Assembly: GCF_002904165.1 (NCBI RefSeq)
Contig: NZ_CVTD020000024.1
Location: forward strand, 1-64,000
Length of the DNA: 64,000 bases
Direction of reading: 5' to 3'
DNA from: Herbinix hemicellulosilytica
GTDB taxonomy: Bacteria; Bacillota; Clostridia; Lachnospirales; Lachnospiraceae
Positions 45,599 through 54,395 of the stretch are shown here, one piece after another. The position numbers and the translations under genes were made by a program. Below the pieces are notes generated by a model, which worked only from the letters and a program-made list of their open reading frames with translations, searched no databases and was not told the DNA's origin. How positions within the stretch are numbered: the first letter of the stretch is position 1; each line of letters begins with the position of its first letter.

Positions 45599-45892
45599 AT
45601 GGAAAAGAGAAGAAATTTTACACCGGAAGAAAAAGCAAAAATAGTGATTGAGGTCTTAAGGGAAGAAAGAACGCTGAATGAGATTGCTGCCGAATATGAA
45701 ATACATCCGAACCAGCTAAGTCGCTGGAAGGCAGAATTCATAAGCAATGCAGGCAGAGTTTTCAGCAAGGAAACTGATGAAGTAGAGAAGGTCAAACAGT
45801 CGTATGAAAAGGAGAAGGACGAACTGTTTAAGCAAATTGGACAACTTTCATATGAGGTTGCCTGGCTTAAAAAAAAATCTGGCCGACTCTAA
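45599..45892 (+). CDS. IS3-family transposase OrfA (copy 2)
   Basis: 97 aa, identical to the protein at 22814-23107; HTH plus coiled coil, ending after the A9 tract at 45869-45877. Confidence 0.93.
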   Translation: MEKRRNFTPEEKAKIVIEVLREERTLNEIAAEYEIHPNQLSRWKAEFISNAGRVFSKETDEVEKVKQSYEKEKDELFKQIGQLSYEVAWLKKKSGRL

Positions 45893-46751
45893 GTCCCGTG
45901 AAGACCGCATGAAGATGATTGACAGAGAAGAAAAGAAACTGAGCATCACAAAGCAAGCCGAACTGTTGGGAATTAACCGTACAAGCCTTTACTACAAGCC
46001 GGTTCCAGTAAATGATGAGGAATACCTGATTAAGCGTATTATTGATGAGATTTACACGGCTCATCCGGAGTATGGCTACCGCAGGATGACGAATATCCTG
46101 AACCGGGATTATCACATTCATATCAATCGAAAGCGAACCCGGCGTTACATGAGGGAAATGGGGATCCATGGTTTCTGTCCTGGACCTAATCTTAGCAAAC
46201 GTCTGCATGGCAAGTATTTGTATCCGTATTTGCTGAGAGGCTTGAATATTGATCATCCAAACCAGGTATGGTCTATAGACATAACATACTGCCGGATGAA
46301 ACGTGGTTTTATGTACATGGTAGCCATTATAGACTGGTATTCCCGGTATATTGTTGGATTTGAGTTATCAAATACTTTGGAAAGGACATTTGTATTAGAG
46401 GCAATAAAAAAGGCGATCAAACGGTACGGGAAACCTGAAATTATGAACAGTGACCAAGGTTCACAGTTTACCAGTGATGATTACATAAACTTACTAAAAA
46501 GTAACAATATAAAAATTTCAATGGATGGGAAAGGAAGAGCACTGGATAACCAAAGGATAGAGCGCTTCTTTCGATCTTACAAGTGGGAAAAGCTTTATCT
46601 TGAGGATTGCGAAACAGGGCACCAACTCCGGCAGATTACCAGGGATTATGTTGAATATTATAACAACCGGAGACCTCATCAGTCGTTAGACTACAAAACG
46701 CCAGCAGAGTATTATTTCGGGGTTTACAAACAGTTTCAGGCAGTCGTATAA
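45804..46751 (+). CDS. IS3-family transposase OrfB (copy 2)
   Basis: 315-codon frame identical to 23019-23966, with an intact DDE triad. It lies in the +1 frame relative to orfA and is probably expressed from within the overlap, as for copy 1. Confidence 0.92.
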   Translation: MKRRRTNCLSKLDNFHMRLPGLKKNLADSKSREDRMKMIDREEKKLSITKQAELLGINRTSLYYKPVPVNDEEYLIKRIIDEIYTAHPEYGYRRMTNILNRDYHIHINRKRTRRYMREMGIHGFCPGPNLSKRLHGKYLYPYLLRGLNIDHPNQVWSIDITYCRMKRGFMYMVAIIDWYSRYIVGFELSNTLERTFVLEAIKKAIKRYGKPEIMNSDQGSQFTSDDYINLLKSNNIKISMDGKGRALDNQRIERFFRSYKWEKLYLEDCETGHQLRQITRDYVEYYNNRRPHQSLDYKTPAEYYFGVYKQFQAVV

Positions 46752-47792: not shown

Positions 47793-48731
47793 ATGAATAC
47801 GGAAAAAAGATTAACAAAAGCCTATAAAGAAGCTACTATTGAATATTTTGACAAAGATTCAAAATATATTATCTTTAGCGATATACACCGCGGTGACGAC
47901 AGTGTATCCGATGAATTTGCCCGTAATCAGGCGATTTTTCTTCATGCCCTGAATCATTATTACAATAACGGCTATATTTTGGTGGAAGCCGGGGACGGGG
48001 ATGAATTATGGGAACATAAGAATTTTAAACATATCCGCCTTGCCCATAAAGATGTTTTTATAGCTATGAAAAAATTTCATGATGAAGGACGGCTCAGAAT
48101 CCTTTACGGAAATCACAATATATTTCTGAAAAATTTGGATTATGTACGGAATAATTATTACCAATTTTATGACGAATACGAGCAAAAAAAGGTAGATCTT
48201 TTTAAAGGTTTAAAACCTATTGAAGCACTGGTTTTAAAACACCGCGTAACCGATCAGGAAATTTTAATTGTCCACGGCCATCAGGGAGATTTTATTAATG
48301 ACCAGTTCTGGTATGTATCCATGCTTCTTTTACGCTACTTTTGGAGGTTCTTGCATGTCGTCGGTTTTGAAAACCCTTCCAGTCCCGCCAGGAATATGTA
48401 CAAAAGGCATAAGGTCGAAAAAAATTATAACAAATGGATAAAAAAACATAAAATTATGTTAATCTGTGGCCATACCCACAGGGCTAAATTCCCCAAAAAA
48501 GGCGAACTTCCGTATTTTAATACCGGCTGCTGCATTAATACCAGAGGTATTCCGGGTATCGAAATCGCAAACGATCAAGTTTTGATGGTCGACTGGAGAA
48601 TAAAAGCCGATGACAGTGGAGTCATGCATATAGAAAGAACCGTGGTAAGAGGGCCGGAACCTATAGAAATTTATGATATAAGGAACACAAACATTAACAC
48701 CGTAAAAACCCCTACCATGCAAATGCAATAA
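47793..48731 (+). CDS. Calcineurin-like metallophosphoesterase
   Basis: 312 aa. All metal-binding motifs of the superfamily are present in order: IFSDIHRGD, EAGDGDELWE, LYGNHN, IVHGHQGDF and CGHTHRA. The layout resembles LpxH/UDP-diacylglucosamine-type and related phosphoesterases, but the substrate cannot be named. No signal peptide or membrane segment. It is 134 bp upstream of the alpha/beta hydrolase and may or may not share its transcript. Confidence 0.88.
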   Translation: MNTEKRLTKAYKEATIEYFDKDSKYIIFSDIHRGDDSVSDEFARNQAIFLHALNHYYNNGYILVEAGDGDELWEHKNFKHIRLAHKDVFIAMKKFHDEGRLRILYGNHNIFLKNLDYVRNNYYQFYDEYEQKKVDLFKGLKPIEALVLKHRVTDQEILIVHGHQGDFINDQFWYVSMLLLRYFWRFLHVVGFENPSSPARNMYKRHKVEKNYNKWIKKHKIMLICGHTHRAKFPKKGELPYFNTGCCINTRGIPGIEIANDQVLMVDWRIKADDSGVMHIERTVVRGPEPIEIYDIRNTNINTVKTPTMQMQ

Positions 48732-48865
48732 CCTGGATTTAACGGATAAAATCAAGGCATTATTTTTAAAATACCCATATAATATAATTAGAGAAGAAAC
48801 TTTACTTAAAATTTGTATTGAGTTATAATGATGACTAAAGTACAAAGCATCAGAGGAATACAGCC

Positions 48866-49636
48866 ATGAAGATGAATATAGATAATTATTCGATAAATTA
48901 TAAAATTACCGGTCATGGAGAAACGGTTGTCATATTGCAGGGCTGGGGAACAAGTATGGACTTGTATGATACCATAGCCGGCTCTATTAATTCTCATTAC
49001 AGGGTTATTCAGCTTGATTTTCCCGGCTTTGGTCAAAGCGATGAGCCTAAAGAGCCCTGGTCGGTAGACGATTATGCCGATTTTGTGTTGAAATTTTTAA
49101 ATAAATTGGAGGTTAAGGAAGCCTCCTTTATAGGCCATTCCTACGGTGGCCGGGTTATCATAAAACTGGCAAGCAGGGATAGCCTTCCTATAAAAATAAA
49201 TAAATTAGTTTTGATAGACAGTGCGGGAATTTTACCGAAAAAAACATTTAAGCAAAAGGTTAGAATTAAAATATTTAAGACGGTAAACCGCTTATCCCGC
49301 ACAAAGCTAGCCCAAGCCTTTTTCAAAGATGCAATAGAAAGCTGGAAAAGCAAACAAGGTTCTGCCGATTACCGTAATGCCTCCCCGATTATGAGGCAGT
49401 GTCTTGTTAAGGCGGTAAACGAAGATCTTACAGCTTATCTTAGTAAAATAAAGGCAGAAACCTTACTTATTTGGGGTGATAAGGATACTGCAACCCCGAT
49501 TAGTGATGCCTACATAATGGAAAAGGCCATCCCCAATGCAGGCCTGGTTGTGCTTAAAGGTGCGGGGCATTATTCTTTTCTTGATCAACCTTATATATTT
49601 GACCGGGTTATGAAATCATATTTTAAAATAAGCTAA
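48866..49636 (+). CDS. Alpha/beta hydrolase
   Basis: 256 aa. The oxyanion region is VILQGWGTSMDLYD, the nucleophile Ser is in FIGHSYGGRV, the acid Asp in IWGDKDTATP and the His in GAGHYSFLDQP, so the triad is complete. No signal peptide. It is followed after 25 bp by the MurF-like gene and probably starts that operon. A thioesterase, esterase or amidase role linked to cell-wall precursors is possible but unproven. Confidence 0.88.
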   Translation: MKMNIDNYSINYKITGHGETVVILQGWGTSMDLYDTIAGSINSHYRVIQLDFPGFGQSDEPKEPWSVDDYADFVLKFLNKLEVKEASFIGHSYGGRVIIKLASRDSLPIKINKLVLIDSAGILPKKTFKQKVRIKIFKTVNRLSRTKLAQAFFKDAIESWKSKQGSADYRNASPIMRQCLVKAVNEDLTAYLSKIKAETLLIWGDKDTATPISDAYIMEKAIPNAGLVVLKGAGHYSFLDQPYIFDRVMKSYFKIS

Positions 49637-49661
49637 TAATATACGGAACGGAGCCTATAAA

Positions 49662-51251
49662 ATGGAATTTATAGATTATATATATTTAGTTAACCTTATT
49701 GTTGTCATTTTATCTTTTATTTTTGTGCTGAGATATAATCTCCATATGTTTCAGCTTAACGGTTATAAAAACAAAGTACATTTAAGGTGGCTTAAGATAA
49801 ACAGACAAAAACAGGCCATTCTTGTAATTTTTCTGGTAAGTGCGGTACTTGCGGCAGTTGCCCGTATTTTCGCCCTTGCCCTTTTGATGTTAATAGGATC
49901 ATTTATAGTATTACTATATTATTATATCTTAAGCAAAGCCAAGGCAAAGAAAAAACTGGTTTATACAAACAGGGTAAAAAGATTGATTGCTACAAATTTA
50001 ATACTGGCAGTTATTTTAACCGGATTAATATTTCCCGCAACAACATTGACCGATTTTACTTTTATCCGGAAGGCTGTCCTAGGTGCAACACTGGTTAATC
50101 TAATTGAACCCTTGTTGGTAATCTTATCAAATATATTAAATAAGCCTATCGAAAAAAGTATTAACAATTATTATATAAATGATGCAAAAAAAATCCTCAA
50201 ACAGTGTCCCAACCTGCTGGTTATAGGTATAACCGGCAGCTATGGAAAAACCAGTGTCAAGCATTTTCTTTCCGCTTTACTTCAGGCAAAATACAATGTG
50301 CTTATGACCCCAGAAAGTTATAATACTCCCATGGGTGTCGTTAAAACAATAAGATCCGGCTTAAAACCGGTCTATGACATCTTTGTATGTGAAATGGGGG
50401 CAAGAAATATAGGGGATATAAAGGAAATCTGTGATATAGTAAGTCCCACCCATGGAATAATCACCTCAATCGGCCCTCAGCATCTGGAATCCTTTAAAAC
50501 TATAGATAACATAATCAAAACAAAATTTGAGTTGGCCGATGCCTTGCCCAAAGAAGGCCTTATATTCCTTAACGGTGATAACGAATATATTAAAAATAAA
50601 GAAGGACTAAACCATCCCATTTATTACGGTATAGATAATCCGAATGTGGATTACCGTGCCGTTGATATAACGGTATCCTCAAAAGGAACGGAGTTTACGG
50701 TCATTTCTCCAAAAAAAGAAGAAGTCCGTTTCCAGACGAAGCTTTTGGGGCGCCACAATGTAGTTAACATAGTCGGTGCTATTGCCGTATCAAACACCCT
50801 GGGTATTCCTTTAGAAGACCTTATTATACCCGTAAGAAGATTGCAGCCGGTACAGCACAGGTTGCAGCTGATTGAAAAAGGAAGCAATATAACCATAATT
50901 GACGATGCCTTTAATTCCAACCCTGCCGGCTCTAAGGCAGCTTTAGATACCCTTGCCCTGTTTGACGGATTAAGAATCCTTATTACCCCCGGCATGGTTG
51001 AACTGGGAGACAAGGAGGATTATTATAACAAAGAATTCGGAAGACAGGCGGCTGTAAGCTGCGATTATGTAATCCTTGTCGGCAAAAGGCAGACCCAGGC
51101 AATCCGTGAAGGCCTTATAAGTGAAGGGTTTGACGAATCAAAGCTTTATATTACCGATTATTTTGATGATGCAATAAATCACGCTTATAATATTCATACG
51201 GATAAACATAAATATATACTGCTTGAAAATGATTTACCGGATAATTATTGA
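49662..51251 (+). CDS. Membrane-anchored Mur ligase, MurF-like
   Basis: 529 aa. The first 165 residues hold about five hydrophobic segments instead of the normal MurF substrate-binding domain. The rest is a Mur-ligase ATPase and C-terminal domain closest to MurF: GITGSYGKTSVKHFLSALL (P-loop), TPESYNTPMGVV, CEMGARNIGDIKEI and DDAFNSNPAGSKAALDTL. MurF adds D-Ala-D-Ala to the UDP-MurNAc-tripeptide. Located 13 bp before a D-Ala-D-Ala ligase gene, it fits that chemistry. A standard soluble MurF presumably exists elsewhere. Confidence 0.85.
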   Translation: MEFIDYIYLVNLIVVILSFIFVLRYNLHMFQLNGYKNKVHLRWLKINRQKQAILVIFLVSAVLAAVARIFALALLMLIGSFIVLLYYYILSKAKAKKKLVYTNRVKRLIATNLILAVILTGLIFPATTLTDFTFIRKAVLGATLVNLIEPLLVILSNILNKPIEKSINNYYINDAKKILKQCPNLLVIGITGSYGKTSVKHFLSALLQAKYNVLMTPESYNTPMGVVKTIRSGLKPVYDIFVCEMGARNIGDIKEICDIVSPTHGIITSIGPQHLESFKTIDNIIKTKFELADALPKEGLIFLNGDNEYIKNKEGLNHPIYYGIDNPNVDYRAVDITVSSKGTEFTVISPKKEEVRFQTKLLGRHNVVNIVGAIAVSNTLGIPLEDLIIPVRRLQPVQHRLQLIEKGSNITIIDDAFNSNPAGSKAALDTLALFDGLRILITPGMVELGDKEDYYNKEFGRQAAVSCDYVILVGKRQTQAIREGLISEGFDESKLYITDYFDDAINHAYNIHTDKHKYILLENDLPDNY

Positions 51252-51264
51252 GAGGAGATTTGAT

Positions 51265-52449
51265 ATGAAAATTAAAGTAGCGGTTATGTTCGGTGGCAAA
51301 AGTGTTGAACATGAAGTTTCAGTAATCTCTGGAATACAGGCTATTGCAAATATGGATAAGGATAAATACGATATTATCCCCGTATATATAACCAAACAGA
51401 ATGAAATGTACATAGGAGACGCCGTAGGCGACATTGAGGCTTATAAAAATATAGATAACTTACTTAAAAACAGCCGCCGGGTTATTATGGTGAGTGACAA
51501 GGGCCAGGTAAAGCTAATATCCTATCCCATGAAACTGTTTAAAAAACCTGAAGAGATAATTATAGATGTTGCCTTCCCCATTGTTCACGGTACCAACGTA
51601 GAAGACGGCACCCTGCAGGGTTATCTTAAAACCCTGGGTATTCCCTTTGTCGGTTGCGATGTCACCGCTTCAGCAATCGGAATGGACAAATACTATATGA
51701 AAGCCATTTTAAAGGACTGCGGTATTCCTGTTTTAGACTGCCTTACCTTTACTACAGGTGATTATAAAAATATTGACAAAATTATTGAAGATATTGAAAA
51801 TGCATTCTCCTATCCCGTTATTGTAAAACCGGTGAATTTAGGTTCCAGTGTAGGTATTAAAATGGCAAACAATAAAGATGAATTAATTTCTGCCATAGAC
51901 GATGCTTTCCTTTATGCCAATAAAATCCTTGTAGAACATGGTATTAAGAATTTAAGAGAAATAAATTGTGCCGTTTTAGGCGATTTCAACGAAGCCATAG
52001 CATCGGAGTGTGAAGAGCCTCTTCGTAATTCAGATATTTTAAGTTATGAAGACAAGTATCTTTCAAACGCAAAGGGTGGCTCCAAAGGTATGGCAAGCGT
52101 TTCAAGAAAAATACCGGCAGAGTTATCTGAGGAAATGAGAGAAAAAATCCGGTCCATGGCCGTAAAAGCATTTAAACATCTCGGATGTAACGGAGTAGCA
52201 AGAATAGATTTTATAATAGATAAAGATACCGGAAACCTCTACTTTAATGAAATAAATACAATCCCCGGTTCTCTAGCATTTTATTTGTGGGAGCCTGTAG
52301 GTATTCCTTATAAGGAACTCTTAAGCAGGCTGATTGAACTTGCTTTAAAAAGAAAAAGGGAAGAAGAAAACATAACGTTTTCTTTTGATACCAATATATT
52401 AAATATGTCTTCTTTCGGAGGTTTAAAAGGAGCCAAAAATGGTAAATAG
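51265..52449 (+). CDS. ddl: D-alanine--D-alanine ligase-like ATP-grasp enzyme
   Basis: 394 aa from the ATG at 51265, after AGAGGAG; the frame opens at 51223 within the previous gene. Motifs: VMFGGKSVEHEVSVISG, FPIVHGTNVEDGTLQGYL, PVIVKPVNLGSSVGI and the metal site YFNEINTIPGS. The segment SYEDKYLS keeps the Tyr that marks D-Ala-D-Ala rather than D-Ala-D-lactate ligases. The C-terminus is about 25 residues longer than usual. Its end overlaps the dipeptidase start by 11 bp. Confidence 0.88.
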   Translation: MKIKVAVMFGGKSVEHEVSVISGIQAIANMDKDKYDIIPVYITKQNEMYIGDAVGDIEAYKNIDNLLKNSRRVIMVSDKGQVKLISYPMKLFKKPEEIIIDVAFPIVHGTNVEDGTLQGYLKTLGIPFVGCDVTASAIGMDKYYMKAILKDCGIPVLDCLTFTTGDYKNIDKIIEDIENAFSYPVIVKPVNLGSSVGIKMANNKDELISAIDDAFLYANKILVEHGIKNLREINCAVLGDFNEAIASECEEPLRNSDILSYEDKYLSNAKGGSKGMASVSRKIPAELSEEMREKIRSMAVKAFKHLGCNGVARIDFIIDKDTGNLYFNEINTIPGSLAFYLWEPVGIPYKELLSRLIELALKRKREEENITFSFDTNILNMSSFGGLKGAKNGK

Positions 52450-53149
52450 CCGCATCCTTGATAATCCTATACCAAATATGGATTTGCCGGAAAAATGGAC
52501 TGAAAACGGTTTTATCTTATCCAAATTGGTATTGATTGATGAAAACATGGGATTTATTATAGATTTGCAGTATCCCAAAATGAATTTTAAAAATACTTTT
52601 AATAAATGCCTGGTTCGGGAGGAATTACTCGAAAGGTTAAAAATTGCTCAAAGCTTCCTGCCCGAAGGTTACAGGTTTAAAATATACGATGCCTGGCGCC
52701 CTATTAAGCTGCAGGAAGAATTATATGAAGTTTATTCCTCTCTTTTAATAGAAAAATATAATTTAAACGCTCTTTCGGATAGTGAAAAAGAAAAAATTTT
52801 GTCCGGGTTTATATCACCACCGGTTCATGAAAGGGACAATCCGCCTGTACATACAACAGGCGGTGCCATAGATTTGACTATAGTGGACCCAGACGGAAAT
52901 GAATTAAATATGGGAACGGCATTTGACGAATTTTCCGATAAGACTCATACCGCATACTTTGAGAATACCGATGAAATTGACATCAAACTCAACCGTAGAA
53001 TGTTATATAACTCCATGATAAAAGCCGGCTTTACCAATCTGCCTACTGAATGGTGGCACTACGATTACGGTGATAAATTCTGGGCTTATTATAATAAATC
53101 AAAAACATTATATAGGGGAGTATTTACAAAAGAGGAGCTAAATTTATGA
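52439..53149 (+). CDS. D-Ala-D-Ala dipeptidase, VanX-type (M15D)
   Basis: 236 aa. Zinc and catalytic residues of VanX-type peptidases are all visible: the Arg of IYDAWRPIKLQ, His and Asp of VHTTGGAIDLTI (H-x6-D), and Glu plus His of TEWWHYDYGD. Such enzymes split free D-Ala-D-Ala. No signal peptide. AAAGGAG inside the ddl end serves as ribosome site, and its stop overlaps the next start (ATGA), so translation of the three genes is coupled. Confidence 0.9.
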   Translation: MVNSRILDNPIPNMDLPEKWTENGFILSKLVLIDENMGFIIDLQYPKMNFKNTFNKCLVREELLERLKIAQSFLPEGYRFKIYDAWRPIKLQEELYEVYSSLLIEKYNLNALSDSEKEKILSGFISPPVHERDNPPVHTTGGAIDLTIVDPDGNELNMGTAFDEFSDKTHTAYFENTDEIDIKLNRRMLYNSMIKAGFTNLPTEWWHYDYGDKFWAYYNKSKTLYRGVFTKEELNL

Positions 53150-54297
53150 AAAACAAATCAGAATTCTACCATAACAATAAATTAATTTATAAAAAAAGCA
53201 AAAAGCGAATGATGGCATTTCTTATTATAGGTACCACTCTTATATGGATTATATTACTGCTCTTAAAAATTTTTATATGGGGTTTGAATTTTAGTGATTT
53301 GCTGGATGATATAACTGCCAACATACTTGGCATACTTCCGCCCCTGCTGATTTTTAACTTTGCTTATGAAAAACTGACGCAGGATATATCGGCTATAGAA
53401 ATGTCTGAGCAGATTACCGAAACCCTTATGAGCGACCCGGAAACCATTGCTTTATTTACCAAAGAACAAAGGCAGGGATTTATCAATTCAACCATAGCCT
53501 CCCTGGTCGATCAAAGGGCGTGTGCCATGGTCCAGGGATGCCTGGAACCATATCTGAATACCGATAATTCATTTAATATTCGGACATACTTTGATTACAA
53601 CATACAGCTTTTACATGACATTCCCCAAAACAACATTTTTAATCCTGCCGATTATTTCTTTTTATCGGAAACATTGCAATATAATATCTGTTACATAAAC
53701 TCCAAGACAGATGAAGACTTGCCTAATGAATTTTGTGCCGGTTTCTTTTTCGACATTGAAAATCTTGATTATGCTTTAAGGACCGGAAAAGGCAAATCCT
53801 GCTGCGACGATCATATTCCCTTCATATTCAGGGAACAGCTCAAAATAAAACGGGAAGACCTTGATAAGATTATTAATTTACCTGAGAATGAACTTAACGA
53901 TTTTATTAAATCGTTTGTTAAACTCAAAATAAAAATAGACAATGAACCTGCAGAAATCCGAAAAATTATTGTTGACCAAACATGTATTAAGGTTCTCTTC
54001 TATTCCAATCATATGGCCAAAAAGAACGGGCATTCCGTAAGAATCCTGTTCCATATGGCTCAGCTTTGGAACAGTGAGTTTCAAGTGGCTCTCAGCGTTC
54101 CCACATATTCACCCAAGATTCAGTTAAGTTACCAGCCGGATAAAATGGCTGTGGAGATGTATTCATTTTTCAGTGACAGTATTGAATCCTCGGTAGGTAA
54201 CGCTTTTGAAAAAGACCACGGTATGTATAATGTGATTGTAAATAATAAATGGATTTATCCGATGAGCGGAATGGTATTTACCATTAAAAAAATATAG
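53146..54297 (+). CDS. Unknown membrane-anchored protein in the MurF/Ddl/VanX group
   Basis: 383 aa. Two hydrophobic segments near the N-terminus (about 22-46 and 55-75) are followed by a soluble domain of about 300 residues that I do not recognise. Its C-terminal part is beta-rich. Its ATG overlaps the dipeptidase stop (ATGA), so it is part of that operon. It could be a sensor or anchoring partner; no known catalytic motif is seen. Confidence 0.7.
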   Translation: MKNKSEFYHNNKLIYKKSKKRMMAFLIIGTTLIWIILLLLKIFIWGLNFSDLLDDITANILGILPPLLIFNFAYEKLTQDISAIEMSEQITETLMSDPETIALFTKEQRQGFINSTIASLVDQRACAMVQGCLEPYLNTDNSFNIRTYFDYNIQLLHDIPQNNIFNPADYFFLSETLQYNICYINSKTDEDLPNEFCAGFFFDIENLDYALRTGKGKSCCDDHIPFIFREQLKIKREDLDKIINLPENELNDFIKSFVKLKIKIDNEPAEIRKIIVDQTCIKVLFYSNHMAKKNGHSVRILFHMAQLWNSEFQVALSVPTYSPKIQLSYQPDKMAVEMYSFFSDSIESSVGNAFEKDHGMYNVIVNNKWIYPMSGMVFTIKKI

Positions 54298-54357: not shown

Positions 54358-54395
54358 GGGATATGGGTATAACCGTGAAGTTATATCCATATCCC
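54358..54395. terminator. Two-way terminator after the MurF/Ddl/VanX group
   Basis: A 16-bp stem (one G-T pair) GGGATATGGGTATAAC with a CGTGAA loop and its complement, between convergent genes. Contains GGTATAACCG, the motif shared with other intergenic hairpins here. Confidence 0.8.

Follow-up and report, generated by a model that had tools for sequence, protein, structure and literature searches.

The stretch of DNA studied here, hereafter the window, comprises positions 1-64,000 of the forward strand of contig NZ_CVTD020000024.1 of Herbinix hemicellulosilytica (GCF_002904165.1). A tight run of five genes, all on the + strand, extends from 48866 to 54297 and encodes an alpha/beta hydrolase (ABH), a MurF-like ligase with a membrane domain (TM-MurF), a D-Ala-D-Ala ligase (Ddl), a VanX-type dipeptidase and a protein designated P5. 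The ligase TM-MurF and its partners are the subject of this work. The features of the locus are the following:

48801-48829: promoter-like site, upstream of the ABH gene
48866..49636, + strand: ABH, open reading frame (ORF) with an Abhydrolase_1 match of 109.2 bits and the triad Ser92-Asp207-His235; constant neighbour of TM-MurF
49662..51251, + strand: TM-MurF, 529 aa; TIGR01143 match of 231.6 bits; sole MurF-type ligase found in the genome
49662..50201, + strand: membrane domain of TM-MurF, residues 1-180, five helices; based on hydropathy, loop charges, invariant residues and the structural model
50217..51248, + strand: Mur middle and C-terminal domains of TM-MurF, residues 186-529, predicted cytoplasmic; PF08245 150.6 bits, PF02875 44.4 bits; C-terminal LENDLPDNY
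51265..52449, + strand: Ddl (D-Ala-D-Ala ligase); TIGR01205 295.6 bits (cut-off 245.65); only Ddl found in the genome
52439..53149, + strand: VanX/DdpX-type M15 dipeptidase, accessory; PF01427 80.2 bits, match to VanX 1r44 of 38.5 bits
53146..54297, + strand: P5, predicted two-helix membrane anchor and beta-rich domain, unassigned family, accessory; ORF, co-occurs with the dipeptidase
54358..54395, + strand: terminator-like stem of 16 pairs, beginning 60 bases past the P5 stop codon

ABH ends 25 bp before the TM-MurF start, a gap of 13 bp separates TM-MurF from the Ddl ATG at 51265, the end of Ddl (52449) and the start of the dipeptidase (52439) overlap by 11 bp, and the dipeptidase and P5 are joined by an ATGA overlap. 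These coordinates confirm the initial annotation, made from the sequence, which had described four genes with such junctions behind a hydrolase. The flanking promoter-like and terminator-like sites are consistent with a single five-gene unit; in number, neither kind of site in the window exceeds shuffles (37 promoter-like sites versus 29.6, standard deviation 5.9; 6 terminator-like sites versus 5.8).

Five hydrophobic segments were found in TM-MurF by hydropathy (4-22, 52-70, 72-90, 108-126 and 138-156). Pfam matches began at residue 190 and were limited to the middle and C-terminal Mur domains, and PF01225, the N-terminal UDP-MurNAc-binding Mur domain, had no match in the protein, so that the earlier description of about five membrane segments standing in for the substrate-binding domain was correct as to the five segments, with the N-domain undetected. 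No detached Mur N-domain was seen either, since PF01225 at E 0.1 matched only MurC and MurE frames genome-wide. The AlphaFold model (77 sequences, pLDDT 94.4, pTM 0.88), which supplies the structure prediction that had been proposed for the N-terminus, is all-helical before residue 186, with helices at 2-32, 37-46, 48-67, 70-92, 103-122 and 133-180, the last of them 48 residues long and leading into the Mur domain. Its best structural matches are MurF structures, 4qf5 with Foldseek and 3zl8 with VIA (Z 41.4, rmsd 4.0, 371 aligned). Loops 1 and 3 carry on average 5.2 and 6.6 Lys plus Arg residues, the outer loops 0.4 and 0.8, with loop limits drawn by hand on the window's TM-MurF. By the positive-inside rule this predicts an external N-terminus and places loops 1 and 3 on the cytoplasmic side. 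Residues Q31, Y35, T102, R104 and R107, kept in 113/113 sequences, are therefore predicted to be cytoplasmic and located at the membrane.

The TIGR01143 (murF) match of TM-MurF covers positions 70-370 of the 418 of the profile and lies below the cut-off of 288.6 bits, a threshold that is itself imperfect, as in a control of 14 genomes 10 matched at 1e-60 and 9 of these were over it. Sequences over this cut-off are called canonical MurF. TM-MurF rows of at least 450 aa were compared with 22 canonical MurFs (those of 30 loci that came through the ORF filter). Common to both are the P-loop, N221, E244-M-G, T268/G271/H274, K288/E290, N304, H365/N369, R400, DD414-415, N418, N420-P421 and ELG, and the catalytic Mur core (P-loop, Lys/Glu, His and DDxxNxNP) has the same residues at ≥90% in the two groups. 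TM-MurF differs in having H399 for Gly, TPG (442-444) for LGD and N456 for His, and ends in E-N-D-L-x-D (LENDLPDNY in the window) where canonical MurF has K-A-S; E522, N523, D524, L525 and D527 are present in 112/113 TM-MurF rows, the other row being gapped. In a tree of 25 TM-MurF, 22 canonical and 5 other rows, in which paralogue branches are long, the TM-MurF rows group in a single clade (100/99) with canonical MurF as its sister group (99/98 for the node that joins them), and each of the two sits on a long stem.

The genome of H. hemicellulosilytica (3.04 Mb, rated 100% complete) contains six genes with the Mur middle domain PF08245, namely TM-MurF and five others. These were read as MurE, MurC, FolC and two MurDs, the second of which is next to a murL-like gene; the labels MurE, MurC, first MurD and FolC were assigned by eye and not by family call. 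When TIGR01143 was run over the genome, the window's TM-MurF ranked first and nothing passed the cut-off. The dcw cluster, with names given by eye, reads mraW-ftsL-two PBP-like genes-mraY-murD-ftsW-murA-ftsQ-ftsZ, and no murF was found on reading it. A housekeeping murF overlooked elsewhere was thus rejected, as the PF08245, TIGR01143 and PF01225 searches and the dcw cluster gave none. PF07478 returned one Ddl-type match over the genome, the window's Ddl with 178.8 bits, and no second Ddl; the five remaining matches score ≤49.1 bits, lie in frames of 451, 1098 and 1386 aa, and are read as other ATP-grasp enzymes.

As no second MurF and no second Ddl were found, TM-MurF and Ddl are, on these searches, housekeeping genes of this genome and not a recycling module. 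The initial annotation had taken the operon for a dedicated wall-precursor recycling or modification module and had suggested looking for a second standard murF and ddl elsewhere in the genome; neither was found, the outcome that it had itself named as telling against such a module. Its wording for that outcome, "simply the housekeeping genes", undersells the operon, because the housekeeping MurF is itself non-canonical.

The distribution of both types was determined in a family sample of 60 genomes, one per genus, with matches listed down to about 93 bits, well below TM-type scores: 52/60 genomes have a full-length canonical MurF, 8/60 the TM type only and 0/60 both. With a profile of the membrane domain only, built from 8 sequences, TM-MurF was detected in 26/398 phylum genomes, spread over 13 families, and with TIGR01143 canonical MurF in 369/398. 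The TM type alone is present in 24 genomes, both types in 2, the canonical type alone in 367 and neither in 5 (Fisher p 2e-31 for exclusion, kinship ignored), canonical MurF thus occurring in 367/372 phylum genomes without TM-MurF. Among the five that lack both types, G349, G382 and G419 gave no match at 1e-60, and in one of the 24 with the TM type alone (G385) TM-MurF is split over two contig ends. Additionally, a pattern scan of named genomes gave at least 571 stretches encoding a relative, some of which may belong to another type than TM-MurF. Of these, the best 80, nearest to the window, were retained as named loci; all 80 reach into the membrane domain, and their titles include Lachnospiraceae, Oscillospiraceae, Eubacterium, Mogibacterium, Clostridia and one Bacteroides. 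Lachnospiraceae bacterium P6A3, P6B14 and C10 are among them, with titles that make no mention of a MAG. TM-MurF appears to replace soluble MurF in a group of Clostridia-type bacteria that includes many from animal guts.

Gene neighbourhoods were compared in 112 loci (7 family, 25 phylum and 80 named), which are not independent, L112 and L051 looking, from their length, like one contig. ABH lies directly 5' of TM-MurF in 110/112 loci, the other two being contig ends, and its triad Ser92, Asp207 and His235 is present in 110/110 aligned sequences. Ddl lies ≤400 nt 3' of TM-MurF in 99/112 loci and at 0.6-5.8 kb in 9; it was not seen in 4/112, which carry ≤874 nt of downstream sequence. On clustering the neighbours of 86 loci, no cluster besides ABH and Ddl exceeded 10. 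On this comparison the conserved core is ABH - TM-MurF - Ddl, with ABH the most strictly kept neighbour. At E 1e-20, 23/32 other TM-MurF genomes have no Ddl besides that of the operon.

Some loci have extra genes between TM-MurF and Ddl (L092 7720-8640 and L111 7729-8634; also L098, L100, L110 and L138), by eye metallophosphoesterase-like genes or genes for small multi-helix membrane proteins. In G394, contig C44 holds two Ddl plus MurF sets (162258-164178 and 353751-357068), one canonical and one of the TM type, as if each MurF came with its own Ddl.

The window's Ddl is matched by both PF07478 and PF01820 and passes the TIGR01205 cut-off. A Tyr at this active site marks ligases of the D-Ala-D-Ala type, and Phe is linked with D-lactate use in some ligases. 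The Tyr motif SYEDKYLS, reported earlier, was found at 260-267, with Tyr261; among full-length relatives this position is Tyr in 77/83 and Phe in 6/83 (loci L122, L124, L131, L142, L151 and L161). The six Phe rows, together with the invariant catalytic residues of the VanX-type dipeptidase, would suit an operon whose product is an altered stem end such as D-Ala-D-Lac, with VanX removing D-Ala-D-Ala as in glycopeptide resistance. On the other hand, the window's Ddl keeps the Tyr of the majority, no VanX was seen at the six Phe loci, and the general D-lactate, VanA, VanB and VanD models score the window's Ddl at 187-222 bits with cut-offs of 550-775, lower than the D-Ala-D-Ala models that it passed. 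A modified stem end is therefore highly improbable, and the earlier judgement that a simple D-lactate pathway is not favoured stands on the same Tyr261 and model scores.

The dipeptidase and P5 were found together in 8 of the 80 named loci, seven times 3' of Ddl and once 5' of ABH; 69 of these 80 loci hold more than 3 kb downstream. Neither was seen near TM-MurF in the 7 family representatives, and the 25 phylum loci, with ≤1.5 kb of flank, cannot show them. Across 298 family genomes P5 was present in one, the window's own, and a VanX of this type at >100 bits in three (the window's own, G474 and G664), the other 38 family genomes with a VanX match at 1e-10 scoring ≤75 bits; in the one same-genus genome searched (G606), P5 and this type of VanX were both missing. 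A core role for VanX and P5 was rejected on these counts (0/7 family representatives and the eight named loci), and both are, by gene content, an optional add-on of some relatives. Recurrence of the whole gene order, which had been put forward for checking, is accordingly borne out for membrane MurF and Ddl, which are widespread, and for the full set in the eight loci mentioned, the dipeptidase and P5 being accessory.

The same comparison bears on the possibility that the operon is a dedicated recycling or modification module, running alongside the normal pathway and having VanX at its core. Such a module would explain why the same dipeptide is made and hydrolysed in one operon, and the set with VanX and P5 does recur; however, no normal MurF and no second Ddl were found in the genome, and VanX and P5 were not seen in 72/80 named loci. 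The module is largely refuted and we regard it as very unlikely.

The dipeptidase, the one M15 peptidase of the genome, exceeds the PF01427 cut-off of 27 bits and remains well below the NF033115 VanX cut-off (37.5 of 320) and a second curated cut-off (85.2 of 176); its resemblance to VanX 1r44 is weak. Residues R87, H138, D145, E204 and H207 are invariant in 7/7 aligned sequences, and this Arg, His, Asp, Glu, His set we take to be the catalytic residues of VanX/DdpX M15 enzymes. A related VanX-type domain lies behind an N-terminal region, flavoprotein-like by eye, in L167 (G474:C13) at 1314-2588, a 3.5-kb locus of G474 in which MurF, Ddl and P5 are not present. P5 had no match in Pfam, NCBIfam or PADLOC, and the eight other P5 rows gave weak, scattered Pfam matches only. 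AlphaFold gave a weak model of P5 (pLDDT 66.4, residues 49-141 under 50). Towards its C-terminus this model is similar to the beta domain at the N-terminus of M1 aminopeptidases and to the putative protease 3kd4 (Z 12.0, rmsd 3.3, 166 aligned). P5 is predicted to be anchored by two helices and to carry a beta-rich domain, the fold of which is uncertain. An anti-phage defence role was rejected, with no PADLOC match for six proteins. On the simplest reading, VanX would drain free D-Ala-D-Ala and so limit the pool, a drain that P5 could perhaps govern.

Taken together, the core of the operon is quite probably a housekeeping module for D-Ala-D-Ala synthesis and addition with a membrane-embedded MurF, whichever the form of the acceptor. 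We infer that TM-MurF performs the MurF reaction, because of its sole-copy status and its Ddl partner. In such a module Ddl would make D-Ala-D-Ala beside TM-MurF, the five membrane helices would anchor the enzyme so that its ATP-dependent Mur domains face the cytoplasm, and TM-MurF would join the dipeptide to MurNAc-tripeptide at the inner membrane face, where the invariant basic cytoplasmic loops may hold a lipid-linked acceptor.

In canonical Mur ligases the N-domain grips the UDP moiety of the precursor. MraY can probably accept UDP-MurNAc-tripeptide. MurT, a subunit of the lipid II isoglutaminyl synthase, has membrane-linked lipid II as its substrate (PMC6113224). As MurT acts on lipid II without a UDP-binding domain, the acceptor of TM-MurF may by analogy be lipid-linked, either lipid I or lipid II tripeptide, and we give this a little under an even chance. 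The fuller scheme, in which MraY and perhaps MurG would process the tripeptide, lipid I or lipid II would be where TM-MurF completes the pentapeptide and the order of precursors would be changed, with ABH as a fixed partner, is put forward tentatively, at somewhat under an even chance.

It is also possible, although we lean away from it, that TM-MurF still uses soluble UDP-MurNAc-tripeptide, its membrane domain only docking it near MraY, to which the pentapeptide would be passed on, while the loops form a new UDP site. This would keep the standard pathway order. The VIA alignments of the listed MurF chains start at residues 97-102 of the TM-MurF model and MAFFT sets R107 against the arginine of the conserved D-S-R of canonical MurF, so that some of the N-domain may be imitated by a segment of loop 3. 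The example of MurT, with loss of the whole UDP domain and lipid II as substrate, speaks against a soluble acceptor, as does the absence, by eye, of mraY from the 22 commonest neighbour clusters. Finally, TM-MurF might be no pentapeptide ligase, the dipeptide going to some other membrane acceptor in a cell without canonical pentapeptide. The divergent C-terminal LENDLPDNY and the TPG at 442-444 would fit such a role. Pentapeptide is the known donor for penicillin-binding proteins, and the dcw cluster has, by eye, two PBP-like genes; moreover, the sole Ddl needs a MurF, and TM-MurF and canonical MurF are mutually exclusive, all of which makes another acceptor very improbable.

Several observations weigh against the proposed housekeeping module with TM-MurF as its MurF. 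The enzyme lies under the murF cut-off and is without the K-A-S motif, and its donor or acceptor could therefore differ; the present evidence would fit a lipid-linked and a soluble UDP-linked acceptor alike. Both MurF types occur in G225 and G394 (2 of 25 TM-positive phylum genomes besides the window's). A second Ddl-type match was found in 9/32 other TM-MurF genomes, two of these matches being under the cut-off, and a Ddl-like gene also adjoins canonical MurF in G041 and G394, the linkage not being TM-specific. As Ddl beside MurF occurs with the canonical type too, ABH is the more telling partner, and the role of this constant partner hydrolase is left unaccounted for by the proposal.

Rfam and tRNA scans of the window gave no match. 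A gene at 47793-48731, on the same strand and 134 bp 5' of ABH, matches metallophosphoesterases weakly (26.1 bits, the cut-off being 27), and no homologue of it was seen in the 112 TM-MurF loci (blastp 1e-8). An IS3-family transposase is encoded at 45804-46751, and an ORF whose listed protein is identical lies on another contig of the genome (L015 2883-3830). Elsewhere in the genome (L005, G000:C8:125766-129071), the murL-like epimerase gene at 14-1171 (237 bits, cut-off 700) overlaps the second murD at 1168-2463 (307 bits); this pair, in addition to the dcw murD, could possibly provide a second route to D-Glu in the stem.

MurF is usually treated as a soluble, three-domain enzyme with a UDP substrate and as an antibiotic target. 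If the proposal is true, the order of the essential peptidoglycan precursor pathway may differ in TM-MurF bacteria, and soluble-precursor assays and N-domain inhibitors may not apply to them. Annotation that relies on the curated cut-off for murF would overlook TM-MurF. No description of a membrane MurF was found in the open-access literature, subscription papers being mostly outside the search, which gives no proof of absence. A 2025 survey of the Mur-domain family names 12 members, none of them a membrane MurF group (PMC11915815).

In comparison with known systems, TM-MurF shares with canonical MurF (TIGR01143) the middle and C-terminal domains, the GSxGKTS P-loop, K288/E290, DDxxNxNP, R400 and ELG, and in some genomes the Ddl neighbour; it differs in its five membrane helices, in having no detected UDP-MurNAc-binding N-domain and in forming a separate sister clade. 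The window's dipeptidase keeps the Arg, His, Asp, Glu and His of VanX/DdpX, but its operon partners are a membrane protein and a Ddl of the D-Ala-D-Ala type, and not van genes. A van-type cassette (D-lactate or D-serine ligase with VanX) was not found, Ddl being below the van ligase cut-offs among the matches listed (25 of 57). CapB is membrane-associated; the 23 NCBIfam matches of TM-MurF include cyanophycin synthetase, with 32 bits of 850, and do not include CapB/PgsB. According to the survey, CapB/PgsB, CphA and FPGS are Mur-domain enzymes that fall outside the canonical three-domain set (PMC11915815), as TM-MurF does.

MurT is alike in its Mur ligase fold without a UDP-binding N-domain (PMC6113224), and the authors of the MurT structures regard that domain as needless and likely to clash with the membrane (PMC6113224; PMC6085368). 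TM-MurF scores 31 bits of 800 on the staphylococcal MurT model versus 231.6 on murF, and the MurT-specific C-terminal DUF1727 was not found in it, PF02875 being its only C-terminal Pfam match at 0.001. The recurrent neighbours of TM-MurF are ABH and Ddl. MurT has a short flexible N-terminus where TM-MurF has a membrane domain, and it works with GatD (PMC6113224).

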